Source: Kribbella sp. VKM Ac-2569
GTDB taxonomy: Bacteria > Actinomycetota > Actinomycetes > Propionibacteriales > Kribbellaceae
NCBI RefSeq assembly: GCF_004216905.1
Contig: NZ_SGXJ01000001.1
Location: 744,001-808,000, forward strand
Direction of reading: 5' to 3'
DNA: 64,000 nt
A program made the position numbers and the translations under genes. Position 1 is the first letter of the stretch. Every line of letters begins with the position of its first letter. The notes beneath the pieces were generated by a model. The model was not told where the DNA came from. It did no database searches and saw only the letters and a list, made by a program, of their open reading frames with translations. Shown here one piece after another: positions 2,572-20,085 of this stretch.

Positions 2572-3252
2572 TCACGACGACCGGGCCCACAGTCCTCGGA
2601 CGTGGCCGATGTGGCGGCGCATCAGTTGCTCGGCGCCCTCGCCGTCGCCGGCCTCTACCAGGTCCAGCAGTTCGTGGTGTTCGGTGGCGGACGGGACCAG
2701 GCGGCCGCTCTCGACCAGTGGAGTGAGGCCGAGCAGGCGCGTCTGCGAGCGCAGGTCCGACACGACGTCGACGAGTTTCTGGTTGCCGGAGTACGCGAGC
2801 AGCGTCACGTGGAAGACCCGGTCGGCCTCGATGTACGCGATCAGGTCGCCGGCCTGGGCAGCCACCACGATGTCCTCGGCCAGCCGCCGCAACCGCGGGT
2901 AGTCCTTCGCCGGGATCGCGGGTACGACGTCCCGGATCGTCGGCGGCTCGATCAGCTGGCGGAGCGCCGCCAGGTTGTCGAGGTCCTCGTCGGACACGTC
3001 GGTGACCCGGAAGCCCTTGTTCCGCAACGAGATCACCAGGCCCTCGCGGACCAGGTCCAGCATCGCCTCGCGGACCGGCGTCGCGGAGACCCCGAACCGC
3101 GCGCCGAGCGTCGGCGCCGAGTACACCTCCCCCGGCTTCAGCTCGCCGGAGATCACCGCCGCCCGCAGGGCATTGGCGACGCTGTCGCGCAGGTTCTCGC
3201 GTTGCGCCAGCCGCCGTACGCTCGGCAGCGGCCCGATCGAATCGGCAGCCAT
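2572..3252 (-). CDS. GntR-family regulator with FCD effector domain
   Basis: A 226-residue FadR-subfamily regulator. The N-terminal winged helix (about 20-85) contains APTLGARFGVSATPVREAMLDLVREGL, the usual GntR recognition helix, and the C-terminal FCD domain (about 95-215) keeps the D/H metal-ligand pattern (D..H.., then H in EHHELLD and H in RRHIGHV). Such proteins are usually repressors relieved by a carboxylate or sugar acid. It sits 43 bases downstream of the proline iminopeptidase gene, at the end of the GH127/peptide-transporter operon, so it may control that operon. GGAGG lies close upstream of the ATG. Confidence 0.88.
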   Translation of the reverse strand: MAADSIGPLPSVRRLAQRENLRDSVANALRAAVISGELKPGEVYSAPTLGARFGVSATPVREAMLDLVREGLVISLRNKGFRVTDVSDEDLDNLAALRQLIEPPTIRDVVPAIPAKDYPRLRRLAEDIVVAAQAGDLIAYIEADRVFHVTLLAYSGNQKLVDVVSDLRSQTRLLGLTPLVESGRLVPSATEHHELLDLVEAGDGEGAEQLMRRHIGHVRGLWARSS

Positions 3253-3295: not shown

Positions 3296-4573
3296 TCAGC
3301 GATGAGGGATGCCACCCCCGATGGAGGCGACCAGCTCGGTGAGCCGCTCGAAGACCCGCTGCGTGCTCAGCCCGTCGTGCTCGTACTCGTTCGTCACCCA
3401 CGCCTGCACGTTGCCGACCCGGTGCGCGGTGTCCAGCTGCAACCCGGAGTCGACGTACATGTCGTCGAAATACACCGCAGCCGCCACCGGTACGTCGTTC
3501 GCGGCCAGCCGCTCGAGGTCGTACAGCTCCGGCCACCGCGGCCGCTGCGCCAGCACCTCGACCGCGCCCTGGAACGGCCGCAGCCCGCGGATCTCCTCGA
3601 ACATCCAGGGGTACATCATCTCGCCGGTGAACAGCAGCGGCCGCGCGTCCTCGGCGAACTCGGGATGCCGCGCCCGCTCCGCCTCGGCCGCCCACCCGGT
3701 CGCCCCGTCACCGGATCCGTAGATGCTCTCCTGCAGCGCGGCGAACAGCGGTCCGCCGACGTACGACGACGCTCCCAGCACCTGGCCGAGGAAGCCGTCG
3801 GACAGTTCGTCGCCGTCGAAGGCCTCGTCGATCAGCCAGTGGATGCGCTCGTACCCGGGCTTCATCCCGAAGTCGATCCCGAGCGACTGCAACCGCCGTA
3901 CCGTCAGCCGATCGCCGTCCGGCAGCAGTACTTCGGACTCTGCCAGCCGGTCCGCGATCCGGCCGATCCGCTCCTCGTTGTGCGGGTACCGCCGGTAGAA
4001 CTCCCGGTTCTTGGCCGCCACCCGCGGATAGGTCCGCCGGTACACCTCGGCCGCCGACGGGTCGATCGACGCGAGCCCACCGGTCACGTAGCACGCGGTC
4101 AAGGCATCCGGCGCCTTGGACAAGTAGGTGAGCGTGAGGAAACCGCCGTAGCTCTGGCCGAGTGTCGACCAGCGGCGGCCGCCGAAGACCTTGTTCCGCA
4201 GCTGCTCGGCGTCCGAGATGATCGAGCCCGCCCGGAAACACGCCAGGTAGTCGGCGCCTTCCTCGGCCGACATCGACGCCATCCGCCGCCCGCTGACCGG
4301 CGTACTCCGGCCCGTGCCGCGCTGGTCCATCAACACGACCCGGTAGTTCTTCAGCGCGTGCTCGATCCACCCCGACACCCCGGTCGGTCGCGGGCCCTTC
4401 CCACCGGGTCCGCCCTGCAGGAACAGCAGGCACGGCAGGTCCTCGTCCTTCCGCGTCGGATCGATCAGCTCCCGCGCGAACACGGTGATCGACTCGCCCG
4501 GGTCGGACCAGTCCAGCGGCACCGAAACCTCGTGCTCACGAACATGCATCCCCGGAATCGTGTAGCTCGTCAT
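3296..4573 (-). CDS. pip: Proline iminopeptidase (peptidase S33)
   Basis: A 425-residue alpha/beta hydrolase of the long proline iminopeptidase type (Aeromonas-like, also about 425 residues). Visible landmarks are LLFLQGGPGG (oxyanion loop, about 50-58), DQRGTGRSTP, the nucleophile elbow GQSYGG (Ser about 141), FTGEMMYPWMFE, the acid Asp in YFDDMYVD (about 370) and the His in TNEYEHDG (about 398). It removes N-terminal proline, and in some homologues hydroxyproline, from peptides in the cytoplasm; no signal peptide is seen. The ATG overlaps the stop of the upstream ATPase gene (ATGA), so it is translationally coupled to the peptide importer. Confidence 0.9.
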   Translation of the reverse strand: MTSYTIPGMHVREHEVSVPLDWSDPGESITVFARELIDPTRKDEDLPCLLFLQGGPGGKGPRPTGVSGWIEHALKNYRVVLMDQRGTGRSTPVSGRRMASMSAEEGADYLACFRAGSIISDAEQLRNKVFGGRRWSTLGQSYGGFLTLTYLSKAPDALTACYVTGGLASIDPSAAEVYRRTYPRVAAKNREFYRRYPHNEERIGRIADRLAESEVLLPDGDRLTVRRLQSLGIDFGMKPGYERIHWLIDEAFDGDELSDGFLGQVLGASSYVGGPLFAALQESIYGSGDGATGWAAEAERARHPEFAEDARPLLFTGEMMYPWMFEEIRGLRPFQGAVEVLAQRPRWPELYDLERLAANDVPVAAAVYFDDMYVDSGLQLDTAHRVGNVQAWVTNEYEHDGLSTQRVFERLTELVASIGGGIPHR

Positions 4574-5394
4574 GAAGCCTTCTTCCCCCTGCGTCTGGCG
4601 TCCCATTCCGGGTTGATCCGCGGTACGGCGGCCAGCAGCGTCTTCGTGTACTCGTCCTGAGGATCCCCGAACACCTGGTCCCGTGTCCCCACCTCGACGA
4701 TTCTGCCTCGGTTCATTACCGCGACCCGCTGTGAGATCTGCCGTACGACGGCCAGGTCGTGCGCGATGAAGACGTAGCTGAACCCGCTCTCCCGCTGCAG
4801 CCGCATCAGCAGCTCCAGCACCTGCGCCTGGATCGACACGTCGAGCGCCGACACCGCCTCGTCGCAGATCACCAGCTTCGGGTTCACCGCGAGCGCCCGG
4901 GCGATCCCGATCCGCTGCGCCTGGCCGCCGGAGAACTGCGCCGGGTACCGCCGGCAATGGTCCGGGTTCAGCCCGACCCGCTCCATGAGCTCCTGCGTGA
5001 ACGCCCGCCGCCCGCCCTTCGGCGTGATCCCCTGGTACGTCAGCGGCGCAGTGACGATCCCCTCCACCGTGTACCGCGGGTTCAGCGACGAAAACGGATC
5101 CTGGAACACCACCTGCACGTTATTCCTGAACGACGCCAGTTCCTTGCCCCTGGCCCTCGTCACGTCCTGCCCGTCGAACACGACCGCCCCGGCGGTCGGC
5201 TCGAGCAACCGGGCCGCGATCCGCGCGGTCGTGGACTTGCCACTGCCCGACTCCCCCACGATCGCGAGCGTCTCACCGAGCTCCACCTCGAAGCTCACGT
5301 CGTCGACCGCCGTGAACACCGACTTGCGAGCCATCGTCCCTTCGCCCCTGGTGACGAACTCCTTCGTCACCCCGCGCACCTCAAGCAAAGTCAC
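4570..5394 (-). CDS. Oligopeptide ABC transporter ATPase, DppF/OppF type
   Basis: A 274-residue ATPase that energises peptide import with its DppD-like partner. Walker [10 protein letters not shown] (about 49-57), the Q-loop [11 protein letters not shown], the signature [15 protein letters not shown], Walker [14 protein letters not shown] and the H-loop IAHDL are all intact. The C-terminal extension after residue 230 ([25 protein letters not shown]) is the oligopeptide/dipeptide-specific OppF/DppF tail. Translation starts at GTG (5392-5394), which overlaps the preceding stop (GTGA), and the gene's own stop overlaps the ATG of the iminopeptidase gene. Confidence 0.92.
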
Positions 5395-6194
5395 AGTGCC
5401 ACCTCGTCATCGATCCGCGGTACGGCGTCCAGCAGCATCCGCGTGTACTCGTGCCGCGGATCCGAGAACACCTGCTCCGCGGTCCCGTACTCGACCGGAT
5501 CACCCGACTGCATCACCAGCACCCGCTGGGCGATCGAGCTGATCACCGCGAGATCGTGGGTGATGAACATCATCCCGGTCCCGGTCGTGGACTGCAGCTC
5601 GCTGAGCAGCTCCAGGATCTGCGCTTGCACGGTCACGTCCAGCGCGGTCGTCGGCTCGTCCGCGATCAGCAACGACGGCGAACAGCACAACGCCATCGCG
5701 ATCATCACGCGCTGCCGCATACCGCCGGAGAACTGGTGTGGGTAGTGGTCGACCCGGCGCGCCGCATCCGGGATGTGCACTCGCTCCAGCGCCTCGATCG
5801 CGACCCGCCGGGCGGCCCGTCGCGTTCCACCGCGATGCGTCCGGTACATCTCCTCGATCTGCAAACCGACGGTGTAATAGGGATTCAGCGACGACAACGG
5901 GTCCTGGAACACCATCGAGATCGCGTTGCCACGCACGGATTTCAGGTCGCGATCCGAGCGCCCTAGCAACTCGGCACCGTCCAGCCGGACGCTGCCCGAC
6001 GTACGGGCGCCACGTGGCAGCAGCCCGAGTACGGCGAGGGCGGTCATCGACTTGCCCGACCCGGACTCGCCGACGATCCCGACCGTCTCGTCCCGGCCGA
6101 CCGTGAACGACACGTTCTTCACCACGTCGACCGGTCCGCGGCTCGTCGGCAATGTGACAGTCAGATTGTCGACAACGAACAATTCGTCACTCAT
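5391..6194 (-). CDS. Oligopeptide ABC transporter ATPase, DppD/OppD type
   Basis: A 267-residue ATPase with Walker [11 protein letters not shown]-loop [11 protein letters not shown], signature [15 protein letters not shown], Walker [14 protein letters not shown] and the switch His in FITHDLAV, followed by the DppD-type tail [17 protein letters not shown]. It forms the heterodimeric motor with the next gene product. The frame is open further upstream, but the ATG at 6192-6194 ([13 protein letters not shown]) is chosen because it overlaps the stop of the permease gene as ATGA and gives the normal family start. Confidence 0.92.
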
Positions 6195-7174
6195 GACGAC
6201 ACCACCCGTACCCGCGGATCGAGGGCCGTGTACAGCAGGTCCACCACGACGTTGCCGATGACAACAAAGAAGGCGGCGAGCAGGGTGACCGCCATGATCA
6301 CCGGCTGGTCGTTCTTGGCGATCGAGTCGGCGGCCATCTTGCCGATCCCGTTCAGTCCGAACACGGTCTCGGTGATCAGCGCGCCGCCGAGCAGGCCGGC
6401 GAAATCCATCCCGAAGATCGTGGTGATCGGCGTCAGCGCGGGCCGCAACGCGTGCCGGCGCATGATCAGCGCGCCGCTCAGTCCCTTGGCCCGCGCGGTC
6501 CGGTAGTAGTTCTCGGCCAGCGTGTCGATGACATTGCTCCGGGTCAGCCGTGCGTACAGACACGCGTAGCCGACGGCGAGCACGACCCACGGCATCAGGT
6601 ACGACTCGAGCCACAGCAGCGGGTCGTCCGCGAACGGCACCGCCGACGGGAACGGCAGCAGTTGCAGCTTTACGACGAGCACGTACTGCAGCACCAACGC
6701 GAGCACGTAGTTCGGCACGCTCACACCGCCGAGCGCAAGGCCCATCGCAGACCGGTCCCACCACGTGCCCTGCTTGACCGCGCTGACCAGACCACCGATC
6801 ACGCCGACGAGCAGCCACAGTACGGCGGCACCCACAGCGACCGTGATGCTCACTGGCAGCCGCGCGGTGATCATGCTCCACACCGACTCGTTGGTCTGGA
6901 AGCTGTACCCGAGACACGGCGCCGAGCAGTGCACCGAGCCGTAGTCGCGGCCCGCGAAGATCCCACTCAGGAAGTCCCAGAACTGCGTGAGGAGCGGCTG
7001 GTTGAGCCCGAGCACGTCACGGATCGAGTCGATGCGCTCCGGCGTACATGTCTTGCCGCAGATCATCACCGCGGGATCCGGTGAGAGCTTGAAGAAGATC
7101 AGGTACGTGAACAGGCAAACGGCCAGCAGGATCAGGACGACGCCCCCAAGGCGGCCGAGGACATAGCGCATCAT
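6191..7174 (-). CDS. Oligopeptide ABC transporter permease, DppB type
   Basis: A 327-residue inner-membrane permease. A first transmembrane helix at about 9-30 is followed by a long extracytoplasmic loop with four Cys (MICGKTCTPE and VHCSAPCLGY), then five more helices. The EAA loop, YYRTARAKGLSGALIMRRHALRPAL (about 222-247), docks with the ATPases. Six helices and the SVPNYVLALVLQY segment are typical of DppB. The paired Cys in the outer loop are more than usual and might form disulfides. Start and stop overlap the neighbouring genes by 4 bases each. Confidence 0.92.
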   Translation of the reverse strand: MMRYVLGRLGGVVLILLAVCLFTYLIFFKLSPDPAVMICGKTCTPERIDSIRDVLGLNQPLLTQFWDFLSGIFAGRDYGSVHCSAPCLGYSFQTNESVWSMITARLPVSITVAVGAAVLWLLVGVIGGLVSAVKQGTWWDRSAMGLALGGVSVPNYVLALVLQYVLVVKLQLLPFPSAVPFADDPLLWLESYLMPWVVLAVGYACLYARLTRSNVIDTLAENYYRTARAKGLSGALIMRRHALRPALTPITTIFGMDFAGLLGGALITETVFGLNGIGKMAADSIAKNDQPVIMAVTLLAAFFVVIGNVVVDLLYTALDPRVRVVSS

Positions 7175-8118
7175 GCGGCTTCTCCTTGGTCGATGAGGGT
7201 TCGGATCTTGTCGCCGAGGACGGTCAGGGAGAGCACGGTGAGGAACAGGAACAGGCCGGGGATCGCGAAGAACATCGGGTCCACCGAGTACCAGCTCACC
7301 GAGCTCGAAATCATCTGGCCCCAGGAAGCGGTCGGCGGCGAGACACCGACGCCGAGGAAGGACAGGCCCGCCTCGGTGCCGATGTAGCCGGGGATCGCGA
7401 GCGTCGTCATCACGACGATCGAGCCGCGCAGGTTCGGCAGGATCTCCCGGAACACCACCTGCGAGTCCTTCGCCCCGGACGCCCGCGCCGCCTCGACGAA
7501 CTCGCGGTTCGCCAGCGTCATCGTCTGGCCGCGGATCACCCGCGCCAGGTACGGCCAGCCGAACGCACTGATCACCACGACCAGCAGCACCGGCCGGTTA
7601 CCCGACGGCAGCGACGACAGGATCGCGATCATGAAGATCAGCGCCGGGAACGCCATCAGGAAGTCCATCAGCCGGGAGATCACCTGGTCGACCCAGCCGC
7701 GGTAGAACCCGGCGAGCATGCCGAGCACGACGCCGAGGATCCCGGTCAGCAGGGTCGCCGAGAGCGAGATCGTGATCGACACGCGCGCGCCGTACACGAT
7801 CCGCGCGAACAGGTCGCGGCCGTTCTGCGGCTCGACGCCGAACCAGTGCGAGCCGCTGATCCCGCCGAGCGAACCGTGCGGTACGCCGCCGAGGTCGGAG
7901 TTGATCGCGGCCGAGTCGAACTGGTACGGCCCCCAGCCGCTGAGCTTGGTGATCAGCGGCGCGGCGACCGCCATCAGGACCACGATCGCCAGGAACACCA
8001 GGCACGCGAGCGCGCCCTTGTCCCTGGTGACCGCGGTGAGGATCCGCCGGCCCGAGGTGGGCGGTGCCGACGACGGCACCACCTCCTCGACTTCGGCAAG
8101 GGTCGGACTTGTTGTCAC
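7171..8118 (-). CDS. Oligopeptide ABC transporter permease, DppC type
   Basis: A 315-residue permease with the short cytoplasmic N-terminus and OppC-type N-terminal region (to about 110), then the binding-protein-dependent transport domain. The EAA motif, FVEAARASGAKDSQVVFREILPNL (about 218-241), is clear. The GVEPQNGRDLFARIVYGARVS segment before the second helix is diagnostic of DppC/OppC. It starts at GTG (8116-8118), sharing GTGA with the stop of the binding-protein gene, and ends in ATGA with the DppB gene. Confidence 0.92.
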   Translation of the reverse strand: MTTSPTLAEVEEVVPSSAPPTSGRRILTAVTRDKGALACLVFLAIVVLMAVAAPLITKLSGWGPYQFDSAAINSDLGGVPHGSLGGISGSHWFGVEPQNGRDLFARIVYGARVSITISLSATLLTGILGVVLGMLAGFYRGWVDQVISRLMDFLMAFPALIFMIAILSSLPSGNRPVLLVVVISAFGWPYLARVIRGQTMTLANREFVEAARASGAKDSQVVFREILPNLRGSIVVMTTLAIPGYIGTEAGLSFLGVGVSPPTASWGQMISSSVSWYSVDPMFFAIPGLFLFLTVLSLTVLGDKIRTLIDQGEAA

Positions 8119-9809
8119 TTGCTGCTGTCCTTGAGTCCGACCGACACCAGGTCGATGCCGCCCGAGAACCCGTCGTGCAGGTAGGCGCCACCAATGTTGC
8201 TACCGACAAGCATCAGGACCTTCTCGTACAGCAGCGGGACGACCGGCGCCAGCGCCATGATCTGCTTGTCCAGTTCGCCGTACGCCGCATTCGCAGCCTT
8301 CACATCGGTCAGCTTGGCGATCTCGTCGATCTTCGCGTTCACGCCCGGGTCGTTCAGCTGCGCCAGGTTGCTGTTGCCCTTCGGGGTGATGTTGCGGCCG
8401 TCGAACAGCGGCGGCAGGAAGGTCGCGCCGGACGGCCAGTCCGGGCACCAGCCGGTGATCGCCGCGTCGTGCTGCTGCGACGTCGTACCGATGACCTCGT
8501 AGTACGTCGCGGTGTCGATGGTGTTGATCTTCACGGTGATCTTCAGCGGCTCGAGCGCCTGCTGGATCGCGACCGCCATCGCCTGCATCTTCGGTTGCGC
8601 GCGAGTGTCGAGCGTCATGGTGAAGCCATTGGCGAAGCCGGCCTCGGTGAGCAGCTTGCGGGCGCCGTCGACGTCACCCTTGTGGTCCGGGCTCGGGTAC
8701 GGGTCGTAGTCCACCCGGCCGGCAATGGTCGGCGGCTGGATGCTGGTGGCGATCTCCGCGAGGGTCGATCCGCCGACCGCGTCGCGGACGGTCTGCTTGT
8801 TGACCGCGAGGTTGATCGCCTGCCGCACCTTCACGTTGTCGAGCGGCTTCTTCGTGGAGTTCAGCCCCATGTACGTCGTACAGCCGCCGAGACCGCTCAT
8901 CGTGCGCTCCTTGAGCTGCGGCGTCTGGATGCGCGCGACCGAAGCGGCCTGGATGGTGCCGGCGATCGCGTCGGCGTCGGTGCCCTGGCCGGCGATCATC
9001 CGCTCGTCGATCGTCGCCGGGTCGAGGCCGAAGGTCCACTGGAACGCGTCCGGGTTGGCCGTCCGCACGTCGTCGGTCTTCTTGTCCCACTTGTCGTTGC
9101 GGACCACCTTGAGCGACGCGCCCGGCTTGTTCTCGGAGACCTTGTACGGCCCGGACGCGATCGGCTTGCTGTCCAGCGAGTTGCCCGCGCCCTGTCCCTT
9201 CGGCACCGGCGTGAAGGTGTTCTGCGCGACTACGCTGCCGAAGTCGGCGTACGGCTTCTTCAGGTGGAACACGATCGTCTTGGCGTCCGGCGTCACGATC
9301 GTCGGCAGGTCACCCGACTTGTAGGGCCCTTGGTACGACGCGGGCGCGGCGATCAACTGCTTCGCGTACGGCGAGCCGATGCCGATCTCCGGATCCCAGG
9401 CACGCGAGACACCCCACTTCACGTCGGCACTCGTGATCGGCGCACCGGTCTCGAAGAACAGGCCGTCCTTCAGCGTGAACGTCCAGGTCTTGCCGCCGTC
9501 GGAAGGCTTGCCCGTGTCGGTCGCGAGGTCCGGCACGATCTTGGTGCCGTCGGCCCCCGGCGCGGCGCCCTGGGTGGTGAGCGTGCGGTAGATCAGCCGG
9601 TAGAAGTTGTTGACGCCACCGTCGAAACCGCGGGCCGGGTCGAGGTGCGAGAACGCTGCGTTCGCGAGCACCTGAAGCGTGCCGCCCTGCGCGGCCTTGG
9701 CGCCGGGGCCGGCGGATTCACCTTTAGCGCCGGAACTGTTGCCGCCGCACGCGGTCAGCGCGAGCGCCGCCGATGCCACGAGCCCCACCAGCATGGAAGT
9801 TCTCTTCAT
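8115..9809 (-). CDS. Peptide-type ABC transporter substrate-binding lipoprotein (family 5)
   Basis: A 564-residue extracytoplasmic solute-binding protein of the SBP_bac_5 family (DppA/OppA/nickel/glycopeptide binders). The signal peptide ends in lipobox LTAC with Cys21, followed by a Gly/Ser/Ala linker. The mature protein opens with TLQVLANAAFSHLDPARGFDG and contains the family's YTFTLKDGLFFETGAPITSADVKW-like segment. It would present the ligand to the DppBC pore. The frame is open upstream, but ATG 9807-9809 gives the signal peptide and overlaps the stop of the GH127 gene by one base (TGATG). The ligand cannot be read from sequence; the neighbouring glycosidase and iminopeptidase suggest an arabinosylated peptide. 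Confidence 0.9.
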   Translation of the reverse strand: MKRTSMLVGLVASAALALTACGGNSSGAKGESAGPGAKAAQGGTLQVLANAAFSHLDPARGFDGGVNNFYRLIYRTLTTQGAAPGADGTKIVPDLATDTGKPSDGGKTWTFTLKDGLFFETGAPITSADVKWGVSRAWDPEIGIGSPYAKQLIAAPASYQGPYKSGDLPTIVTPDAKTIVFHLKKPYADFGSVVAQNTFTPVPKGQGAGNSLDSKPIASGPYKVSENKPGASLKVVRNDKWDKKTDDVRTANPDAFQWTFGLDPATIDERMIAGQGTDADAIAGTIQAASVARIQTPQLKERTMSGLGGCTTYMGLNSTKKPLDNVKVRQAINLAVNKQTVRDAVGGSTLAEIATSIQPPTIAGRVDYDPYPSPDHKGDVDGARKLLTEAGFANGFTMTLDTRAQPKMQAMAVAIQQALEPLKITVKINTIDTATYYEVIGTTSQQHDAAITGWCPDWPSGATFLPPLFDGRNITPKGNSNLAQLNDPGVNAKIDEIAKLTDVKAANAAYGELDKQIMALAPVVPLLYEKVLMLVGSNIGGAYLHDGFSGGIDLVSVGLKDSSK

Positions 9810-11653
9810 CAGTCTTCTCTTTCCGTTCGCAGCCATACACGCATGGCCAGGGCCTGACGGTTTCCCCAGAGGAAGTACGGCACGAACGTCACCGGTACCT
9901 CGTCGATGGCGGATCCTGGGGTCTGTTCGGTGAGCACGGGATAGAGCTCGGGAGGCGGCGCCGGCGCGATACCGGCGGTCAGTTCCAGCACGAGATGGTC
10001 GTCCTGGCGGCGCGCGATCGCCTTGGTCACGGCGGTCGGCGTGAGCAGCAGGTCGTCGACCGGTGCCGCGGAATCTTGTTGCTCGACGCAATAGACCAGC
10101 GGTCCGCGGGCGACGGCGATCGCGCCTCGGGTCGCATCGAGGTACGGGTGCGATCCGTGCGCTCTCGGTGCCATCGGCAACGTCAGCCGCAGTACGTCGC
10201 CACGCTTGAAGTTTCGGGTTGTCACGGCCCAGCCGGCGTCTACGGACTGTCCGTCGAGCTGCGCATCCGAAGCCCATCGCGGGATGCGGAGGGCGATCGC
10301 TCGCTCCTCCGCCGGTGCGTCCTCGACGGTCAGCGTGATCTCGCCGTCCCACGGGTAGTTGGTGGTGACGGTGACGGTGAGATCCTCGGTGGTGACGCGG
10401 GCGTCCGCGTAGATGCCGACGTACAACGTGTCGTCGCGGTGGAGCGCGACGTGGTCCTGGAGTTCGGACATCCAGCGGATGATGTTCGGCGGGCAGCACG
10501 GGCAGCCGAACCAGGACCGGCGGAGAAGTTCGCCGCCGTCCTCGGCGCCGGAGCGCTGCTCGTGGTCCGGGCGGCGCTGCAGCGGGTTGTCGTAGAAGAA
10601 CGCCGTACCGTCGGCCGAAAGCCCTACGGCGTAAGCGTTGTAGAGCACGGTCTCGTACACGTCGAGGTACGACGCCTTGCCGGTGGCGCGGAACATCCGC
10701 CAGGCCCACTGCATCGTCGCGATCGCCGCGCATGTCTCGGCGTACGCCCGCTCGGACGGCAGCTCGTACCGGTCGCCGATCGCCTCGTCGGAGTGCCGGC
10801 TGCCGAGCCCACCGGTGAGGTACAGCTTGGTCGCGACCATGTCGTCCCACAGCCGCTCCAGCGCTGCCAGCAGCGTCGGGTCGCCGGTCTCCAGGTGTAC
10901 GTCAGCCGCACCCGCCGCGAGGTACGCCATCCGTACGGCGTGACCGGTGACGGACGGCAACTCGCGGAACGGCACGTGGTCCTGGAAGTACTCCCCCGGG
11001 AAGATCGTGTGCTTGAGCTTCCCCCGACCACGCCGGTCGACGAACAGCCGGGCCTGCGTGAGGTAGTCCTCGTCGCCGGTTTCACGATAAAGCTCGACGA
11101 GCGCCATCTCGACCTCGGGATGCCCGTCGACAACCTCCTCGCCGTGGTCGCCGTACTTCTCGACGACGAGATCCGCGAACCGCCGGGCGATTGTCAACAA
11201 TCTTCCATCGGACAATCGGCGCCGCGCTGCGACGGCCGCCTGGATGAGGTGGCCGAGGTTGTACAGCTCGTGACCCCAGCCGAGGTCGGACCAGGGCTGC
11301 TTGGGCTGGTCCGGGTCCTGGAAGTACGAGTTCAGGTAGCCGTCGTCGGCCTGCGCCTGCTCGAGCAGTTCGACGACCTCGTCGTAGAACTCCCGCGCAC
11401 CGGCCGGCGCGTCGTCGCGATCGACCTCGTAGGCGAGGCCCTCCAGCGTCTTGTAGAGATCGGTGTCCAGGAACGGGTACCGCCCGCGGTACGGCCCGAC
11501 CGACGGGTCGGCCAGCCGCCGGAGGTTCTCCAGGTTCCCGGCCTTGCGCAGCTCCGTGATCGCGTGCGGGATCGTCGCCTGCCGGTTCCGCTGCTGCCAG
11601 TCGTGCAGCAGTCCACCGGTCAGCTCCACGCTCAGCTCTGTACCGTGTGACAT
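9809..11653 (-). CDS. GH127 beta-L-arabinofuranosidase
   Basis: A 614-residue glycoside hydrolase of family GH127 (HypBA1 type, formerly DUF1680). The (alpha/alpha)6 barrel carries the zinc/nucleophile set in order: Glu306 and Cys308 in AYAETCAA, then Cys386-Cys387 in GCPCCPPN, matching Glu338, Cys340, Cys417 and Cys418 of the Bifidobacterium enzyme. The family releases L-arabinofuranose from beta-1,2-linked arabino-oligosaccharides, including those on hydroxyproline; a few members act on other pentoses. There is no signal peptide, so it works inside the cell on imported material. The start at ATG 11651-11653 has AAGG 8 bases upstream; GTG at codon 9 is an alternative because the ATG lies inside an inverted repeat. 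It heads the coupled peptide-transport operon. Confidence 0.9.
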   Translation of the reverse strand: MSHGTELSVELTGGLLHDWQQRNRQATIPHAITELRKAGNLENLRRLADPSVGPYRGRYPFLDTDLYKTLEGLAYEVDRDDAPAGAREFYDEVVELLEQAQADDGYLNSYFQDPDQPKQPWSDLGWGHELYNLGHLIQAAVAARRRLSDGRLLTIARRFADLVVEKYGDHGEEVVDGHPEVEMALVELYRETGDEDYLTQARLFVDRRGRGKLKHTIFPGEYFQDHVPFRELPSVTGHAVRMAYLAAGAADVHLETGDPTLLAALERLWDDMVATKLYLTGGLGSRHSDEAIGDRYELPSERAYAETCAAIATMQWAWRMFRATGKASYLDVYETVLYNAYAVGLSADGTAFFYDNPLQRRPDHEQRSGAEDGGELLRRSWFGCPCCPPNIIRWMSELQDHVALHRDDTLYVGIYADARVTTEDLTVTVTTNYPWDGEITLTVEDAPAEERAIALRIPRWASDAQLDGQSVDAGWAVTTRNFKRGDVLRLTLPMAPRAHGSHPYLDATRGAIAVARGPLVYCVEQQDSAAPVDDLLLTPTAVTKAIARRQDDHLVLELTAGIAPAPPPELYPVLTEQTPGSAIDEVPVTFVPYFLWGNRQALAMRVWLRTERED

Positions 11654-11681
11654 TGCACAGACCTTAAGTGCAATGTCACAC
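11645..11681 (-). promoter_or_regulatory. Perfect inverted repeat over the GH127 start: probable double operator
   Basis: GTGTGACATTGCA (11645-11657) is repeated exactly inverted as TGCAATGTCACAC (11669-11681) with an 11-base spacer. Each arm region is itself a GTG-N6-CAC quasi-palindrome (GTGACATTGCAC at 11647-11658 and GTGCAATGTCAC at 11668-11679), with centres 21 bp apart, that is two helical turns. This suggests paired binding of two regulator dimers. In RNA the 13-bp stem would hide the ATG and put the AAGG ribosome site in the loop. The regulator is unknown; the GntR protein encoded at the operon's end is one candidate. Confidence 0.7.
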
Positions 11682-11771
11682 CTTGCCAACCCCCAACCAC
11701 AGACGTTTACACACCGGAAACGATCCGACCGGTCAGCATGCGATGGCCCTCCGCAGCGAGATCGTGTTCCG

Positions 11772-12405: not shown

Positions 12406-14928
12406 TCAGAGGCGCGGGTCGATCGGTTCGGATTCGAGGGCCAGTACGGCGAAGACGCATTCGTGGATGCGCCACAGCGGTTCGCCGCGGGCTGCGCGGT
12501 CGAGGGACTCCAGGCCGAGGGCGTACTCGCGGAGGGCCAACGAGCGTTTGTGGCCGAGGTTGCGGTCGCGGAGGCGGGTGAAGTTCTCGGGCTCGGTGTA
12601 GTCGGGGCCGTAGATGAGCCGCAGGTACTCCTGCCCGCGCACCTTCAACCCCGGCTGGGCGAGACCCTTCGCCGTGCGAGTCAGGTTCGCGGCAGGCTTC
12701 ACCACCATGCCCTCTCCCCCGGCCCCGGTCAGCTCCTCCCACCACGCGACCCCGGCGTCCCAGTTGTCCGCATCCACGAACAGCCGCCGTGTCTGCGTGA
12801 CCAAGTCCGGGCCCGCGGCAACCATCCGGTCCGAGATACCGAGGTGCCAAGCATGCGGTCGTTCCTGATACGTCGTCCCTTCGGACGCAAGCACCTGGAA
12901 CGGCGCGACCCGCACCCCGTCGAGCCCGTCGGTCGGCCAGCAGTACCGTCGGTACGCCGCGGTGAACCGCTCCGCATTCGCCGTACGCCGCTCGGCCGAC
13001 GCCAGCAGATCGCCGACGTCCAGGCCGGCCGCCTGGGCAGACCGTAGCGCAGCGGTTGCTGCGGGCAACGACGTACGAGCGGCCGCTCCGACGGCGGCGT
13101 ACTGGTTCCGGAGCAGGTCCTCGGCCTTCGCGCTCCACGGCAACAGTTCGGCGTCGAGCAGCAGCCAGGACGTGTCGAGTTCATCGAAGACACCAGCATC
13201 GGAGGCGACCGCACGCAGGCGGAGCAGCAGCTCGTCGGTGAGTTCCGCGTCGAAGAACGACCGTCCGGTGCGAGTGTGGATCGCGCCGCGGCCGGCCAGA
13301 CCGAACCGCTTCTCGGCCACGTCGTCGTCCCGCGTCAGCAGCACGACCGCCCGCGAACCCATGTGCTTCTCCTCGCACACCAGCTCGGTGACACCCTGGC
13401 CCCGGAACGTCTCGAACGCCTGCCGCGGGTGCTCCAGCAGCCCCGGCTCCGGCGAGGTCGCGACCGGGCTCATCGTCGGCGGCAGGTACAGCAGGAAGCG
13501 CGGATCGATCGCGAACCGGCTCATCACCTCCAGCGCCGAGCCGGCCTGCTCGGCCCGGATGCTCAGCCGCCCGTGGGCAGCGGTCTCGATCACCCGGCGA
13601 CCGGTCACGTCGGTCAGCTCGAGTACGTCGGGCTCGCGCGGCGGCGCCGTTGCCACATGCAACGGTTTCGCCGGCGCGTAGTACTCCTCGGCCGCCTCCA
13701 CCGCCACGAGTTCCCGCTCCGGGTAGCGCAGCGCGGTCAGCGATCCGCCGAAGACGCAGCCCGTATCGAGGCAGATCGTGTTGTTGATCCACTCCGGCTC
13801 GGGCGTCGGAGTGTGGCCGTAGACGACCATCGCGCGACCCCGGTAGTCGTTCGCCCACGGGTAGCGCACCGGCAGCCCGAATTCGTCGGTCTCCCCCGTC
13901 GTCTCGCCGTACAGGCAGAACGAGCGGACGCGGCCCGACGTACGACCGTGCATCCGTTCGACGAGGCCGGCGTGCGACACGACCAGCTTGCCGTCGTCGA
14001 ACACGTAGTGCGAGATCAGCCCGTCGATGAATGCCGCGACCTCATCGCGGAACTCCGAAGGCTCAGCGGCCAACTGCTCGAGCGTCGTCTCGAGGCCGTG
14101 GCTGATCTTCACGTTCTTGCCCCGCAGCGCACGCAGCAGCTTGTCCTCGTGGTTGCCAGGGACGCAGTAAGCGTTGCCGGCCGCAACCATTCCCATCACG
14201 AGCCGGAGTACGCCGGGAGAGTCGGGACCGCGGTCGACGAGGTCACCGACGAAGATCGCCCGCCGGTCCTGGTGTACGGCGTCGACCGGCCGTCCGGCGT
14301 CGTCGCGTGTCAGCGTGTAGCCGAGGTCGGTGAGCAGCCGCTCGAGTTCGGGACGGCACCCGTGCACGTCGCCGATGATGTCGAACGGGCCGTGACGGTC
14401 GGTCAGATCGTTGTACAGCCGCGTCCGTTCGATGCTGACGGCATCGATCTCCTCGACGCTTTCCAGCACGTGAACCGTCCGGAAGCCTTCACGCTTCAGG
14501 CTGCGCAGGCCGCGCTTCAACTGCGAGCGCTGCCGCGTGATCACCTTCGACCCGAACTGCCGGTCCGATCGCTGCTCGTTCCGCTCGACGCACACACGCT
14601 CCGGCGGGTCGAGCACGATCGCGACCGGGAGTACGTCGTACTCGCGGGCCAGATTCACGAGCTCCTTGCGGGCCTCCGGCTGCACGTTGGTGGCGTCGAT
14701 CACCGTCAACCGCCCGGCGGCCAGCCGCTTCCCGGCGATGAAGTTGAGAACCTCGAAGGCGTCCTTCGTCGCGGCTTGGTCGTTCTCGTCGTCCGAGACG
14801 AGCCCGCGGCAGAAGTCGCTCGAGATCACCTCGGTGGCCAGGAAGTGCTGACGCGCGAACGTCGACTTGCCGGAGCCGCTGGCACCGACCAGCACGATCA
14901 GGGAGAGAGCTGGTACGTCGATCTTCAT
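12406..14928 (-). CDS. pnkp: Bacterial polynucleotide kinase-phosphatase-ligase (RNA repair)
   Basis: An 840-residue three-domain RNA-repair enzyme. The N-terminal kinase has P-loop GASGSGKST (15-23). The central calcineurin-like 2',3'-phosphatase has GDVHG (186-190), GDLVDRG (228-234) and GNHE (258-261). The C-terminal ligase-like adenylyltransferase has the nucleophile motif EEKHMGSR with Lys521. The enzyme heals broken RNA ends (5'-OH phosphorylation, removal of 2',3'-cyclic phosphate) and is activated for sealing by Hen1. Its ATG overlaps the hen1 stop (ATGA), giving the classic hen1-pnkp pair. All three active-site motifs look intact. Confidence 0.95.
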   Translation of the reverse strand: MKIDVPALSLIVLVGASGSGKSTFARQHFLATEVISSDFCRGLVSDDENDQAATKDAFEVLNFIAGKRLAAGRLTVIDATNVQPEARKELVNLAREYDVLPVAIVLDPPERVCVERNEQRSDRQFGSKVITRQRSQLKRGLRSLKREGFRTVHVLESVEEIDAVSIERTRLYNDLTDRHGPFDIIGDVHGCRPELERLLTDLGYTLTRDDAGRPVDAVHQDRRAIFVGDLVDRGPDSPGVLRLVMGMVAAGNAYCVPGNHEDKLLRALRGKNVKISHGLETTLEQLAAEPSEFRDEVAAFIDGLISHYVFDDGKLVVSHAGLVERMHGRTSGRVRSFCLYGETTGETDEFGLPVRYPWANDYRGRAMVVYGHTPTPEPEWINNTICLDTGCVFGGSLTALRYPERELVAVEAAEEYYAPAKPLHVATAPPREPDVLELTDVTGRRVIETAAHGRLSIRAEQAGSALEVMSRFAIDPRFLLYLPPTMSPVATSPEPGLLEHPRQAFETFRGQGVTELVCEEKHMGSRAVVLLTRDDDVAEKRFGLAGRGAIHTRTGRSFFDAELTDELLLRLRAVASDAGVFDELDTSWLLLDAELLPWSAKAEDLLRNQYAAVGAAARTSLPAATAALRSAQAAGLDVGDLLASAERRTANAERFTAAYRRYCWPTDGLDGVRVAPFQVLASEGTTYQERPHAWHLGISDRMVAAGPDLVTQTRRLFVDADNWDAGVAWWEELTGAGGEGMVVKPAANLTRTAKGLAQPGLKVRGQEYLRLIYGPDYTEPENFTRLRDRNLGHKRSLALREYALGLESLDRAARGEPLWRIHECVFAVLALESEPIDPRL

Positions 14929-16325
14929 CGAGCCTCCTCCCGGCGGAACAGCGCGAGCTGCGTCGGCGGTCCCACCTCAGGGTCGTCGGCGCCGACGGGC
15001 CGGAACTGCACGGTGTAGCCGAAGCGGTCTGCGATCTGCTGGGACCAGGTCCGGAACTCCGCGCGGGTCCACTCGAAGCGGTGGTCCGGGTGGCGGAATT
15101 TGCCGGCCGGGAGGGACGGGAAGCGCACGTTGTACTCGCTGCTCGGGGTGGTGACGACGACCGCGGCAGGGCGTGCCGCACGGAAGACCGAGTCCGCCAG
15201 AGCCGGCAGCCGTGGCGGGTCGACGTGCTCGACGACCTCCATCAGCACGACGGCGTCGAGCCCGGCGAGCCGCTCGTCGGCGTATGTGACCGACGACTGC
15301 AGGAACTTCAGCCGGTCCCGCTGGCGATCCGGCAGGTCGTCGTAGTGCAGCCGCCGCTTGGCCCTGATCAGCGCCCGCGCCGACACGTCGGTCGCGATCA
15401 GCTCGCCGATCATCGGGTCCTTCAGCAGTTCGCCGACCAGCGCGCCCTCACCACATCCGATGTCCGCGATCCGCCGTGCACCGAGCTCCCGCAGTACGTC
15501 GGCCACCGTCGTACGCCGTTCGACGGCCAGCGACACCGAGCCCTCGTCCGACGTCTCCTCCGCGAGCTCGAGCCCGTCCGCCTCGGCCAGCCGTTCGAGG
15601 ACGGCGTCGGCCAGGTAGCGCCGGTGCGCGAGGTAGCGGTGCGAGATCAGGTCCTTCTCGGGATGCGCGGCCAGCCAGCCCTCGCCGGCGCGGACGAGTT
15701 TGTCCACCTCGTCCGATCCGACCCAGTAGTGCTTGGCGTCATCGAGGACCGGGAGCATCACATACAAGTGCTTGAGTGCATCGGCCAGCCGCAGTACGCC
15801 GGTCAGCCGCAGGTCGACGTACCGCGAGTCACCCCAGGCCGGGATCTCCGGGTCGAGCGGCACGGGGCGGGCGTCGACGGTCCAGCCGAGCGGCGCGAAG
15901 AACCGCTCCGTGAGGTCGGCGCCGCCGTTGCACGGGAGCGCCGGGACGTGGACCTCGAGCGGGATCGGGCGCACGGCGAGGTCCGGGTGGGCGTCGCAGC
16001 GGCCGTTCATCGCCGTACGGAAGAGCTTTCCGAGCGCGACGGCGAGCAGGCTGGAGGCGGCGTACGGGCGGTCGTTGACGTACTGGCCGAGCGTGAAGCC
16101 TTCGGCCGCCTTGCCGCGGCCGGCCTTCACCAGGCCGATCGGGTCGATCTCGAGCAGCACCGCCGCCGTACAACGCTCGGCGGTCGCCTCCGGGTAGAAG
16201 ACGTGGGCCGATCCTCCGGTGACGTCGATCGCCTGCGGACGGGCCGGGTTCTTGTGCAACAGGAACCCGAAATCACTCGCGGGCGCGTCTACTCCGGCCA
16301 GATCGGTACCAATCGTCAGGAACAC
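14925..16325 (-). CDS. hen1: Hen1 3'-terminal RNA ribose 2'-O-methyltransferase
   Basis: A 466-residue bacterial Hen1. The N-terminal half (about 1-245) is the domain known to activate Pnkp ligation. The C-terminal half is the SAM-dependent methyltransferase: ADIGCGEGALVGELL (about 288-302) binds SAM, and MEVVEHVDPPRL holds metal-ligand Glu/His residues. It 2'-O-methylates the 3' end of cleaved RNA before Pnkp seals it, which protects the repaired junction from repeat cleavage by the same ribotoxin. It starts at GTG (16323-16325), is followed directly by pnkp, and no third gene belongs to the unit. Confidence 0.94.
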   Translation of the reverse strand: MFLTIGTDLAGVDAPASDFGFLLHKNPARPQAIDVTGGSAHVFYPEATAERCTAAVLLEIDPIGLVKAGRGKAAEGFTLGQYVNDRPYAASSLLAVALGKLFRTAMNGRCDAHPDLAVRPIPLEVHVPALPCNGGADLTERFFAPLGWTVDARPVPLDPEIPAWGDSRYVDLRLTGVLRLADALKHLYVMLPVLDDAKHYWVGSDEVDKLVRAGEGWLAAHPEKDLISHRYLAHRRYLADAVLERLAEADGLELAEETSDEGSVSLAVERRTTVADVLRELGARRIADIGCGEGALVGELLKDPMIGELIATDVSARALIRAKRRLHYDDLPDRQRDRLKFLQSSVTYADERLAGLDAVVLMEVVEHVDPPRLPALADSVFRAARPAAVVVTTPSSEYNVRFPSLPAGKFRHPDHRFEWTRAEFRTWSQQIADRFGYTVQFRPVGADDPEVGPPTQLALFRREEAR

Positions 16326-18264: not shown

Positions 18265-18750
18265 GTGGCGAAGAAGCAGAGTCAGGGAACACCCGCGACC
18301 GTTGTGCTGACGAAGGCGAAGGTCGAGTTCACGACGCATGCGTACGAGCACGACCCGGCGGCGAAGTCGTTCGGGCTGGAGGCCGCCGAGGCGCTCGGGC
18401 TGGCGCCGGAGCAGGTGTTCAAGACGCTGCTCGTCGAGGTCGACGGGAAGCTCACGGTCGGCGTCGTACCGGTCGGCAAGCAGCTCGACCTGAAGGCGAT
18501 CGCGGCCGCGGCCGGCGGGAAGAAGGCGGTGATGGCCGACCCGGCCGCCGCCGAGCGCACCACCGGGTACGTCGTCGGCGGCATCAGCCCGATCGGCCAG
18601 AAGCGCGCCCTGCCCACGGTCGTCGACAGCACCGCCACCGACCACCCGACCGTCTACGTGTCGGGCGGCCGGCGCGGCCTCGACATCGGCCTGTCCCCCG
18701 CGGACCTGATCACCGTCACCAAGGCACGCACCGCGGCTATCGCCAGATAG
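18265..18750 (+). CDS. ybaK: Cys-tRNA(Pro) deacylase YbaK
   Basis: A 161-residue YbaK/EbsC protein that hydrolyses Cys-tRNA(Pro) mischarged by prolyl-tRNA synthetase. Family landmarks are the early catalytic-face HAYEHDP, QVFKTLLVEVDG, the VVPVGKQLDLKAIA segment with the conserved Lys, and YVVGGISPIGQKRALPTVVD. The start is GTG 18265, and a TAAGCT box (18253-18258) lying on the stop codon of the upstream gene would give a second, leaderless transcript. Its 3' end overlaps the convergent GH32 gene by 14 bases. Confidence 0.92.
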   Translation: MAKKQSQGTPATVVLTKAKVEFTTHAYEHDPAAKSFGLEAAEALGLAPEQVFKTLLVEVDGKLTVGVVPVGKQLDLKAIAAAAGGKKAVMADPAAAERTTGYVVGGISPIGQKRALPTVVDSTATDHPTVYVSGGRRGLDIGLSPADLITVTKARTAAIAR

Positions 18751-20065
18751 ACCTGAGCCGATGGATGGTGAGCGTGTCGAGGTGTATCCGACCCTCGGCG
18801 ACGAGCTCTGGCTCAGCTGAACGAATGTTGTAGCTCTGATAGACCGCGCCGTCATTACCGAACACATCTAGCTGATCGCGGTCGACGAGTAGCTGCAGCT
18901 TGATCTTCCCGTCGACCGTCCGCAGCTTGGCGCCGTCCAGGGTCTCCTGCTCAGCGTCGTACACCACCTCGCGACCGACTCTCAGACTGAACTTCCTCGC
19001 CTCTCGGACGTCGACGGTCGCCTCGAGCTCGTAGGTAGTCCCAGCTGGAAGCTGCTGTACGTCGTCTTCAACTGTCAGGCTCTCCCAGGTCCGCGTGCTT
19101 TCGCGCAGAGTTGCGAGCTCTGGGACCGGGGTGCTGAAGACGCGGAGGCCGTCGTCGGTGTGGTGCAGGGTGAAATCCACCGGGAAGGTTGCGTTGCCGG
19201 TCCAGATCGATCCCTTGTTCTCGCCCTGCCAGGCCATCGACACGACCCGGTCGTTCGGCAGGTTCGAGAAGTTGAGTGCCGCGTAGTATCCGCTGCCGGC
19301 GTACGTGTCGGTCTGATTGATCTTCTGCGGTCCGGTCCAGTCGGTGTGAAACGCCGTACCGTCCCACTCGCCGATCTGATACTCACCGCTCCCGCCGTGC
19401 AGGAGCCAGCGGTATCCGCCGTCGATCGGCATCCGGATCATGTTCGGGCACTCGAACAACCAGTCCGCTCGGTACCGCGACGCGAACGTCCAGTCGAGCA
19501 GGTTGGTGGACGTGTAGAAGTTGACGCCGTTGCCGCCCTCGTCCGACCACACAACCATGCCCCAGTGCTTCGACACCGGATCCCAGAACACCTTCGGGTC
19601 GCGGCTCGTGCCGCCGGGCGTCACGACCTTCTTCCCGTCGGCGTACGTCGTGAACGTGTTGCCGCCGTCCAGGCTGTAGAAGACCGTGACGCCGTTCGTG
19701 CCGGAGTAGACGACGATCGGGTCGTCGTCGCCGTTCTTCAGACCGCTCGCGTTCTCGGTGTCGACCACGCCGCCGCCCGACCACAGGTCGCCAGGATGGA
19801 CGTGCGGGTCGAGAGCGATCGGTTGTTGCGTCCAGTGCACGAGGTCGGTGCTGGTCGCGTGGCCCCAGTGCATGGTGTCCCAGACCAGGCTGAACGGATT
19901 GTGCTGGTAGTAGAGGTGATACACGCCGCGGTAGTACAGCGGCGCGTTCACGTCGTTCATCCAGCCGCCGCGGGTACTGAAGTGGAACTGACCCCGGTTG
20001 TCCTCCTGGTAGTTCGTCGCCGGGTACGGAAAATCCCTCGGTACGTCGGTGTGTGCGCTCACCAT
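18737..20065 (-). CDS. GH32 fructan/sucrose hydrolase
   Basis: A 442-residue glycoside hydrolase of family 32 (levanase/inulinase/invertase). The five-bladed propeller has the nucleophile in WMNDVNAP (usual form WMNDPNG; here Val replaces Pro), the transition-state Asp in SRDPKVFW and the acid/base Glu in FECPNM, followed by a C-terminal beta-sandwich from about residue 330. It cleaves terminal beta-fructofuranosides. No signal peptide is visible, so a cytoplasmic site is likely unless the N-terminus is longer. It lies 20 bases after the phospholipase C gene and is probably co-transcribed with it. Confidence 0.88.
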   Translation of the reverse strand: MVSAHTDVPRDFPYPATNYQEDNRGQFHFSTRGGWMNDVNAPLYYRGVYHLYYQHNPFSLVWDTMHWGHATSTDLVHWTQQPIALDPHVHPGDLWSGGGVVDTENASGLKNGDDDPIVVYSGTNGVTVFYSLDGGNTFTTYADGKKVVTPGGTSRDPKVFWDPVSKHWGMVVWSDEGGNGVNFYTSTNLLDWTFASRYRADWLFECPNMIRMPIDGGYRWLLHGGSGEYQIGEWDGTAFHTDWTGPQKINQTDTYAGSGYYAALNFSNLPNDRVVSMAWQGENKGSIWTGNATFPVDFTLHHTDDGLRVFSTPVPELATLRESTRTWESLTVEDDVQQLPAGTTYELEATVDVREARKFSLRVGREVVYDAEQETLDGAKLRTVDGKIKLQLLVDRDQLDVFGNDGAVYQSYNIRSAEPELVAEGRIHLDTLTIHRLRSIWR

Positions 20066-20085
20066 TACAACGATGACATAGCGCT

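Follow-up and report, generated by a model that had tools for sequence, protein, structure and literature searches.

A candidate uptake operon for arabinosylated hydroxyproline peptides joins a GH127 glycosidase to a peptide-type importer in Kribbella and its relatives

Results

Organization of the locus

What would a glycosidase and a peptide importer have to do with each other? The window, by which we mean the whole 64,000-nucleotide stretch of Kribbella sp. VKM Ac-2569 DNA that was analysed (contig NZ_SGXJ01000001.1, positions 744,001 to 808,000; the assembly has 13 contigs and totals 8.4 Mb), carries a minus-strand run of seven genes at 3296-11653. The run encodes a predicted GH127 beta-L-arabinofuranosidase, an importer that is complete as a Dpp/Opp set (an SBP_bac_5 solute-binding protein, or SBP, two BPD_transp permeases, and two oligo_HPY ABC ATPases), and a long alpha/beta hydrolase resembling proline iminopeptidases (Table 1). 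Successive genes overlap by 1, 4, 4, 4, 4, and 4 bases, the G+C content by codon position is coding-like in each of the seven, and each family assignment is backed by Pfam. The coordinates, overlaps, coding composition, and Pfam families bear out the initial annotation, which had described seven consecutive, overlapping minus-strand genes; its labels stand as to family, but it had exchanged the two permeases. Because the permease gene next to the SBP gene contains PF12911 OppC_N and the following one contains PF19300, the order is DppC then DppB. An eighth gene on the same strand, encoding a GntR-FCD regulator, lies 43 bases downstream of the seven-gene block.

Table 1. Genes and predicted regulatory features of the operon (window coordinates)
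Feature	Coordinates	Strand	Remarks
GH127, predicted beta-L-arabinofuranosidase, 614 aa	9809..11653	-	PF07944 + PF20736 + PF20737
Family-5 solute-binding lipoprotein (SBP), 564 aa	8115..9809	-	PF00496; lipobox LTAC by eye
DppC/OppC-type permease	7171..8118	-	PF12911 OppC_N + PF00528
DppB/OppB-type permease	6191..7174	-	PF19300 + PF00528
DppD/OppD-type ATPase	5391..6194	-	PF00005 + PF08352; best NCBIfam OppD, 315.1 bits (below cut-off 575)
DppF/OppF-type ATPase	4570..5394	-	PF00005 + PF08352; best NCBIfam dipeptide ATPase, 306.3 bits (below cut-off 408)
Alpha/beta hydrolase, long (425 aa), proline-iminopeptidase-like	3296..4573	-	
GntR-FCD regulator, proposed to regulate the operon	2572..3252	-	PF00392 + PF07729
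Predicted -35, TTGGCA	11684..11689	-	17 bases before the predicted -10; seen by eye in most same-genus loci
Inverted repeat, left arm, GTGTGACATTGCAC	11668..11681	.	perfect repeat; between the predicted -35 and -10
Predicted -10, TAAGGT	11661..11666	-	7 bases before the ATG
Inverted repeat, right arm, GTGCAATGTCACAC	11645..11658	.	conserved motif including the GH127 start codon

Conservation of the gene order

Close GH127 relatives were sought in 117 genomes, the Kribbella genome itself included. They are found in 20 other genomes of the genus at 74-94% identity (21 of 38 same-genus genomes, counting our own) and in one genome of another family, G108, at 61%. When the surrounding stretches were fetched, the order and orientation GH127-SBP-DppC-B-D-F-iminopeptidase proved to be kept in all 21 (20 same-genus stretches and G108), so that the seven-gene order for which a search had been suggested is indeed present elsewhere. 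The GntR gene adjoins the block in 20/20 of the other same-genus loci and is more distant in G108. Scanning named genomes with the G108 protein yielded 13 further loci, in Phytoactinopolyspora, Streptomyces (three), Nonomuraea (three), Microbacterium, Promicromonospora (three), Specibacter, and Oerskovia; the importer block is present in 12 of the 13, representing six genera, and absent from the Oerskovia locus, the most distant at 45% identity. A sample of 396 genomes from the phylum added one more locus, G340, again with the block. Since only two of these 396 genomes reach an E value of 1e-160, our own and one other, the operon is rare and scattered.

Altogether, 35/35 loci belonging to this GH127 clade have the order GH127-SBP-DppC-B-D-F: those of 21 same-genus genomes (the window among them), of G108, of six further genera (12 named loci), and of G340. 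The gene order is conserved beyond chance. The initial annotation had raised the prospect of an order unique to one strain; recurrence across the genus, six other genera, and the phylum sample rules out such an accident. When 57 GH127 proteins were placed in a tree, a branch with 100/100 support separated the 34 operon members from the 23 others. The tree is midpoint-rooted, with a long-branch warning for the non-operon GH127s; it leaves out G340, L059, and L060 (the latter two gave no match at the cut) and represents L056 by its larger piece only. In L056 (3080-5227), the GH127 of G018 aligns as two pieces about 300 bases apart within a single 868-aa frame, an in-frame insertion.

Neighbouring peptidase and hydroxyproline genes

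Beyond the genus, the block has further company. Among 14 outside-genus loci (L055, L098-L109, and L132), the iminopeptidase-like gene is present in 12 (not L098 or L105) and a Xaa-Pro aminopeptidase in 12 (not L099; the L107 stretch ends shortly past the iminopeptidase). A DHDPS-type gene occurs in 10, an epimerase-family gene in eight (in L100 as two pieces covering about 40%; the L101 and L108 genes are truncated where the stretch ends), and a D-amino-acid-oxidase-type gene in six; 11 of the 14 have at least one of these three. For example, the G108 block continues into a Xaa-Pro aminopeptidase, a DHDPS-family gene (PF00701), a proline-racemase/4-hydroxyproline-epimerase gene (PF05544), a GntR gene, and a D-amino-acid-oxidase-type gene (PF01266), and further on come a small protein and an FAD-type protein, both of which match a fused 2Fe-2S/FAD protein at a separate locus of our own genome, on contig C6. 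That C6 locus unites an epimerase (PF05544), an oxidase (PF01266), a DHDPS-type gene (kin at 53%), and a Xaa-Pro aminopeptidase. In Promicromonospora the hydroxyproline genes run divergently from GH127 and have the upstream region in common with it. An Aldedh gene, a candidate for the pathway's 2-oxoglutarate-semialdehyde dehydrogenase, stands beside the operon only in Promicromonospora L106 (by Pfam) and in L107 (by eye), and scores below every NCBIfam cut-off. Two Cys motifs visible in the epimerase-family protein P0002 are presumably the epimerase active-site motifs. The trans-4-hydroxyproline pathway, described from free hydroxyproline onward, draws on these same gene families, as set out in parts of PMC4113996. 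Two side observations concern additional PF07944 genes: in L105 a second one (18895-21603) follows the Xaa-Pro aminopeptidase gene and has its nearest structural matches in GH146, and at the same position L106 has a 24% match to it.

Do other GH127 genes keep such company? At loci of GH127 paralogues in relatives (40-47% identity), none of 20 has an iminopeptidase, Xaa-Pro aminopeptidase, DHDPS, epimerase, or D-amino-acid-oxidase gene within about 8 kb on each side, a span that would mostly catch the two peptidases and might miss the epimerase, since the positive loci extend to 10 kb or more; weak matches (27-35%), to ATPases alone, appear in three of the 20. The four other PF07944 loci of our own genome likewise lack these peptidase and hydroxyproline genes. 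The peptidases and hydroxyproline genes thus distinguish this GH127 clade. Proximity to a Dpp-type importer is another matter: in our own L058 (contig C5, 6359-18719), a GH127 gene adjoins one for a GH2 beta-galactosidase-like protein, and a different Dpp-type importer is close by, so a GH127 near such an importer is not special in itself, and the PF07944 gene of L059 is also near Dpp-type genes. We accordingly rejected the Dpp label alone as support for peptide import. The binding proteins of L058 and L059 give only short, weak matches to that of the window.

The enzymes and the binding protein

The window GH127 scores 310.8 bits against PF07944, for which the cut-off is 24.9, and by eye has no obvious signal peptide. 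Passages of PMC10850190 describe a Cys3-Glu zinc site in GH127 enzymes and place H142, Y145, H194, and R273 in the substrate site. In the alignment, these four HypBA1 residues correspond to H128, Y131, H178, and R241 of the window protein, and HypBA1 E322, E338, C340, C417, and C418 correspond to E290, E306, C308, C386, and C387; all nine catalytic, zinc, and substrate-site residues that were checked are kept. The catalytic residues of HypBA1 are a Cys nucleophile and a Glu acid/base. The Pfam score and the nine residues are consistent with the HypBA1-type GH127 first proposed for this gene.

The solved chain nearest to the binding protein by sequence is 2wok, OppA2 of the clavulanic acid cluster, and by fold 2wop and 2wok are nearest (from a model of middling confidence, mean pLDDT 69.8, that gave no useful view of the pocket). 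The early assignment of a peptide-type binding lipoprotein is therefore sustained, its closest relative being a peptide binder on both counts. OppA2 has been solved with bradykinin and with arginine, which for the ligand of the window protein is a lead only. As for the importer as a whole, described at the outset as a peptide importer, this relationship speaks for the description, while the Dpp label, as L058 illustrates, does not suffice.

Among solved structures, the 425-aa hydrolase comes closest to a plant protein, Arabidopsis DM3 (AT3g61540), which we take to be a long prolyl aminopeptidase, and the similarity extends over the whole length. Against the NCBIfam models for proline iminopeptidase, the hydrolase scores 42.8 (NF045948, cut-off 500), 38.7 (TIGR01249, cut-off 259.75), and 35.6 (TIGR01250, cut-off 167.65). 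Given DM3 as closest relative and scores below these cut-offs, we infer rather than assign a specificity for proline or hydroxyproline; the long-form proline iminopeptidase of the initial annotation is favoured by the likeness to DM3 and not by NCBIfam. A Serratia prolyl aminopeptidase with high activity for acetylated hydroxyproline is the subject of a title cited within PMC9147577.

An operator-like motif

A perfect inverted repeat, with arms of 14 bases and a spacer of 9, is present upstream of GH127 in the window; it is situated between the predicted -35 and the first codons, with the predicted -10 inside the spacer. Because this -10 is only 7 bases from the ATG, the GH127 mRNA is predicted to be leaderless. 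Of the other 20 loci of the genus, 15 keep the repeat, the exceptions being L047 and L051-L054; the right-arm core is found in the window, in all 20, and in G108. Variants of the motif precede GH127 in the 12 named loci, those of L098 and L104-L107 being more diverged and aligned by eye. Exact matches to the 12-base core number two in our own genome, and both are arms of this repeat. In L047 and L049, the ATG of the motif, which is the GH127 start in the window, by eye opens a nine-codon frame that ends just before a later GH127 start, possibly a leaderless upstream frame.

Is the motif shared with the hydroxyproline genes? Across 14 loci (L055 and L098-L110), there are 12 matches to the core with at most one mismatch, eight before GH127 and four before the DHDPS-type gene (L055, L100, L101, and L108). 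A motif matrix, trained on GH127-upstream sites only, some of them from the same genomes as the test loci, scores 20.7 in L100, 21.6 in L101, 26.4 in L108, and 23.9 in L104 before hydroxyproline-pathway genes, the L104 site preceding the D-amino-acid-oxidase-type gene; reversed-sequence controls from seven loci score at most 9.5. Since a match inside the coding region of the L054 binding protein reaches 16.0, we do not treat middling scores as evidence and rely only on those above 20; at 4872 in L055, a site scoring 13.1 enters the count solely for its single mismatch to the 12-base core. The hydroxyproline-pathway genes of L099, L102, and L103 have no second motif site. Two sites are unexplained: one of 24.8 in L104 (9566), about 340 bases before the GH127 site, and one of 16.8 near the second proline-racemase-family gene of our own genome (L096, 10894). 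The GntR regulator is suggested as the binder of the motif by the company it keeps.

Two further sites were noted in passing. A strong palindrome in L104 (7108, 21.5) precedes a sodium:alanine-symporter-family gene, perhaps a further regulon member that would serve free hydroxyproline, and an operator-like site in L108 (4834, 17.0) precedes a second proline-racemase-family gene.

Other genes near the operon

Upstream of GH127, at 12406-16325 on the minus strand, are two overlapping genes of 840 aa and 466 aa that by eye resemble the Pnkp/Hen1 RNA-repair pair. In 19 of the 20 other same-genus operon loci (all but L051), the 840-aa gene is found no more than about 3 kb upstream of GH127, and the 466-aa gene is visible in 10 of those 20, the remaining stretches mostly ending too early. 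A GH32-like gene, recognized by eye (WMNDVN...), occupies 18737-20065 on the minus strand.

Discussion

What does the operon take up? In plant cell walls, hydroxyproline arabinosides make up a large pool that is hard to digest, and several plant peptide hormones carry them as well. We propose that the operon probably serves the uptake of arabinosylated hydroxyproline peptides derived from plant hydroxyproline-rich glycoproteins, that it is regulated by GntR, and that the peptides are de-arabinosylated and clipped inside the cell. Bacteria with the operon likely feed on the sugar-decorated hydroxyproline peptides of plant cell walls. The initial annotation had suggested arabinosyl-hydroxyproline peptides as the substrate, and this gains support from relatives in which the block is contiguous with the Xaa-Pro aminopeptidase and hydroxyproline genes and from the motif common to some of them.

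The following sequence of events may be envisaged. Outside the cell, other enzymes would cut an extensin-like glycoprotein to short peptides. The lipoprotein and DppC-B-D-F would then import hydroxyproline peptides that presumably enter intact, still carrying one or a few beta-L-arabinofuranoses. GH127, probably cytoplasmic, would strip the arabinose, and the iminopeptidase-like enzyme would take off N-terminal proline or hydroxyproline, likewise in the cytoplasm. The Xaa-Pro aminopeptidase, encoded in the same locus in most outside-genus relatives and separately here, would remove the residue before proline or hydroxyproline. Finally, free trans-4-hydroxyproline would be epimerised, oxidised, deaminated, and burnt via the 4-hydroxyproline (4Hyp) pathway, whose genes adjoin the operon in many relatives and lie at C6 in our own genome. 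GntR would repress through a GTGCAATGTCAC-type operator overlapping the promoter, with a hydroxyproline-derived inducer. Ser-Hyp4 repeats (Hyp, hydroxyproline) carry one to four arabinoses on Hyp, as described in parts of PMC6085000, and a Xaa-Pro aminopeptidase paired with an iminopeptidase would suit such Ser-Hyp(n) repeats.

Several observations weigh against this proposal. The link to hydroxyproline comes from genes adjoining the operon in other genomes and is not seen in the window itself, and three of the 14 outside-genus loci (L098, L109, and L132) have no hydroxyproline-pathway gene in the stretch examined. Our own hydroxyproline locus (C6, L095) is without an operator, its best matrix score being 11.1, inside a coding region. 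Nor does presence or absence within the genus tie the operon to the epimerase, because an epimerase of our own type is found in 36 of 38 genomes and the operon in 21 of 38; co-occurrence across the genus was for this reason rejected as support. Both epimerase-family proteins that were scored miss the NCBIfam 4-hydroxyproline-epimerase cut-off of 376, P0002 with 355.6 bits and our own with 351.1 (the latter also has 358 against 556 for proline racemase), and the 425-aa hydrolase reaches none of its three NCBIfam cut-offs. The best solved match of GH127 is 6ex6 (353.6 bits), followed by 4qjy (344.9), with HypBA1 only third (264). Finally, a Pfam search of the eight operon genes revealed no GH121, GH43, or secreted protease.

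How else could the genes be read? The peptides might enter sugar-free, as scavenged proline and hydroxyproline peptides, with GH127 acting on arabinose oligomers delivered by another importer. Bare peptides fit the iminopeptidase, the Xaa-Pro aminopeptidase, and hydroxyproline catabolism equally well, and Bifidobacterium longum likely imports arabinobiose rather than a peptide, according to sections of PMC7263609. However, GH127 heads the same co-directional run in 35/35 loci, and the Pfam search found no sugar-type importer within the eight operon genes, which makes sugar-free entry unlikely in our judgment. Less credible still is an operon for plant oligosaccharides, such as pectic beta-L-arabinofuranosides or aceric-acid side chains, in which the Dpp-type importer would carry sugars and the alpha/beta hydrolase would be an esterase. 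The GH127-GH2 arrangement of L058 near a Dpp-type importer offers a precedent, and aceric acid hydrolase (NF049879) is the sole NCBIfam model matched by GH127, but with a score far under the cut-off (384.5 versus 950); moreover, the window binding protein has little likeness to those of L058 and L059, and the Xaa-Pro aminopeptidase and hydroxyproline genes of the relatives would have no place. Extensins are far more abundant than arabinosylated peptide hormones, and the amino-acid catabolism encoded at the relatives' locus points to feeding. On both grounds, it is very improbable that hormones (CLE-type and others) are the true target of an operon that eats or silences signals, even though the sequence holds nothing against this and parts of PMC7263609 place beta-L-Araf linkages on hydroxyproline-rich glycoproteins and peptide hormones alike.

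How does the proposed peptide-uptake operon compare with known systems? The HypBA1/HypBA2/HypAA system of B. longum likewise has a GH127 with the checked active-site residues and an adjoining ABC importer, and, as we propose for the window, its GH127 acts inside the cell and on the same plant material. There, with GH127, GH121, and GH43, the arabinobiose beta-Ara2 is cut off outside and likely taken in by a sugar importer (PMC7263609, in the parts cited above), whereas the window importer is of the SBP_bac_5/OppBC type, the eight genes include neither GH121 nor GH43, and the locus has peptidases, joined in relatives by hydroxyproline genes. In Xanthomonas euvesicatoria, XeHypBA1/BA2/AA degrade arabinosyl-hydroxyproline and the adjoining predicted prolyl oligopeptidase gene is a pseudogene; the word "transporter" is absent from the main text of that report (PMC6085000), and XeHypBA1 belongs to GH146, unlike the window GH127 (PMC10850190, in part). 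Of the enzyme families that make up trans-4-hydroxyproline clusters, 4HypE, the D-amino-acid-oxidase type, and the DHDPS type adjoin the operon in relatives and recur at C6, and the aldehyde dehydrogenase is represented only by the Aldedh genes of L106 and L107. The clusters are described from free hydroxyproline (PMC4113996, in part), and here a glycosidase, a peptide importer, and peptidases stand alongside. Dpp/Opp importers have the same set of binding protein, two permeases, and two ATPases, here placed in one run with GH127 and the iminopeptidase-like gene. A study of Latescibacteria proposes the use of extensins by GH127, with oligopeptide and sugar importers separate (PMC4454575, in the portions seen). 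Among the literature matches listed, no title or opening of an abstract reports this combination of genes, most subscription journals being outside that scope. Thus the parts are known and their combination is new, a variant of the use of plant hydroxyproline-glycoproteins.

In the B. longum route, the sugar is stripped outside and likely imported alone; a locus coupling sugar removal, peptide import, proline/hydroxyproline peptidases, and hydroxyproline catabolism would use both sugar and peptide. Its proposed regulator and operator, its binding protein, and its enzymes each lend themselves to separate testing. More speculatively, and with considerable doubt, we suggest that the Dpp-type importer could be dedicated to intact O-glycopeptides, both extensin fragments and arabinosylated peptide hormones, with the sugar stripped inside and the pentose and hydroxyproline burnt. 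If this is true, an intact-glycopeptide importer would give bacteria a means to eat or silence plant peptide signals.

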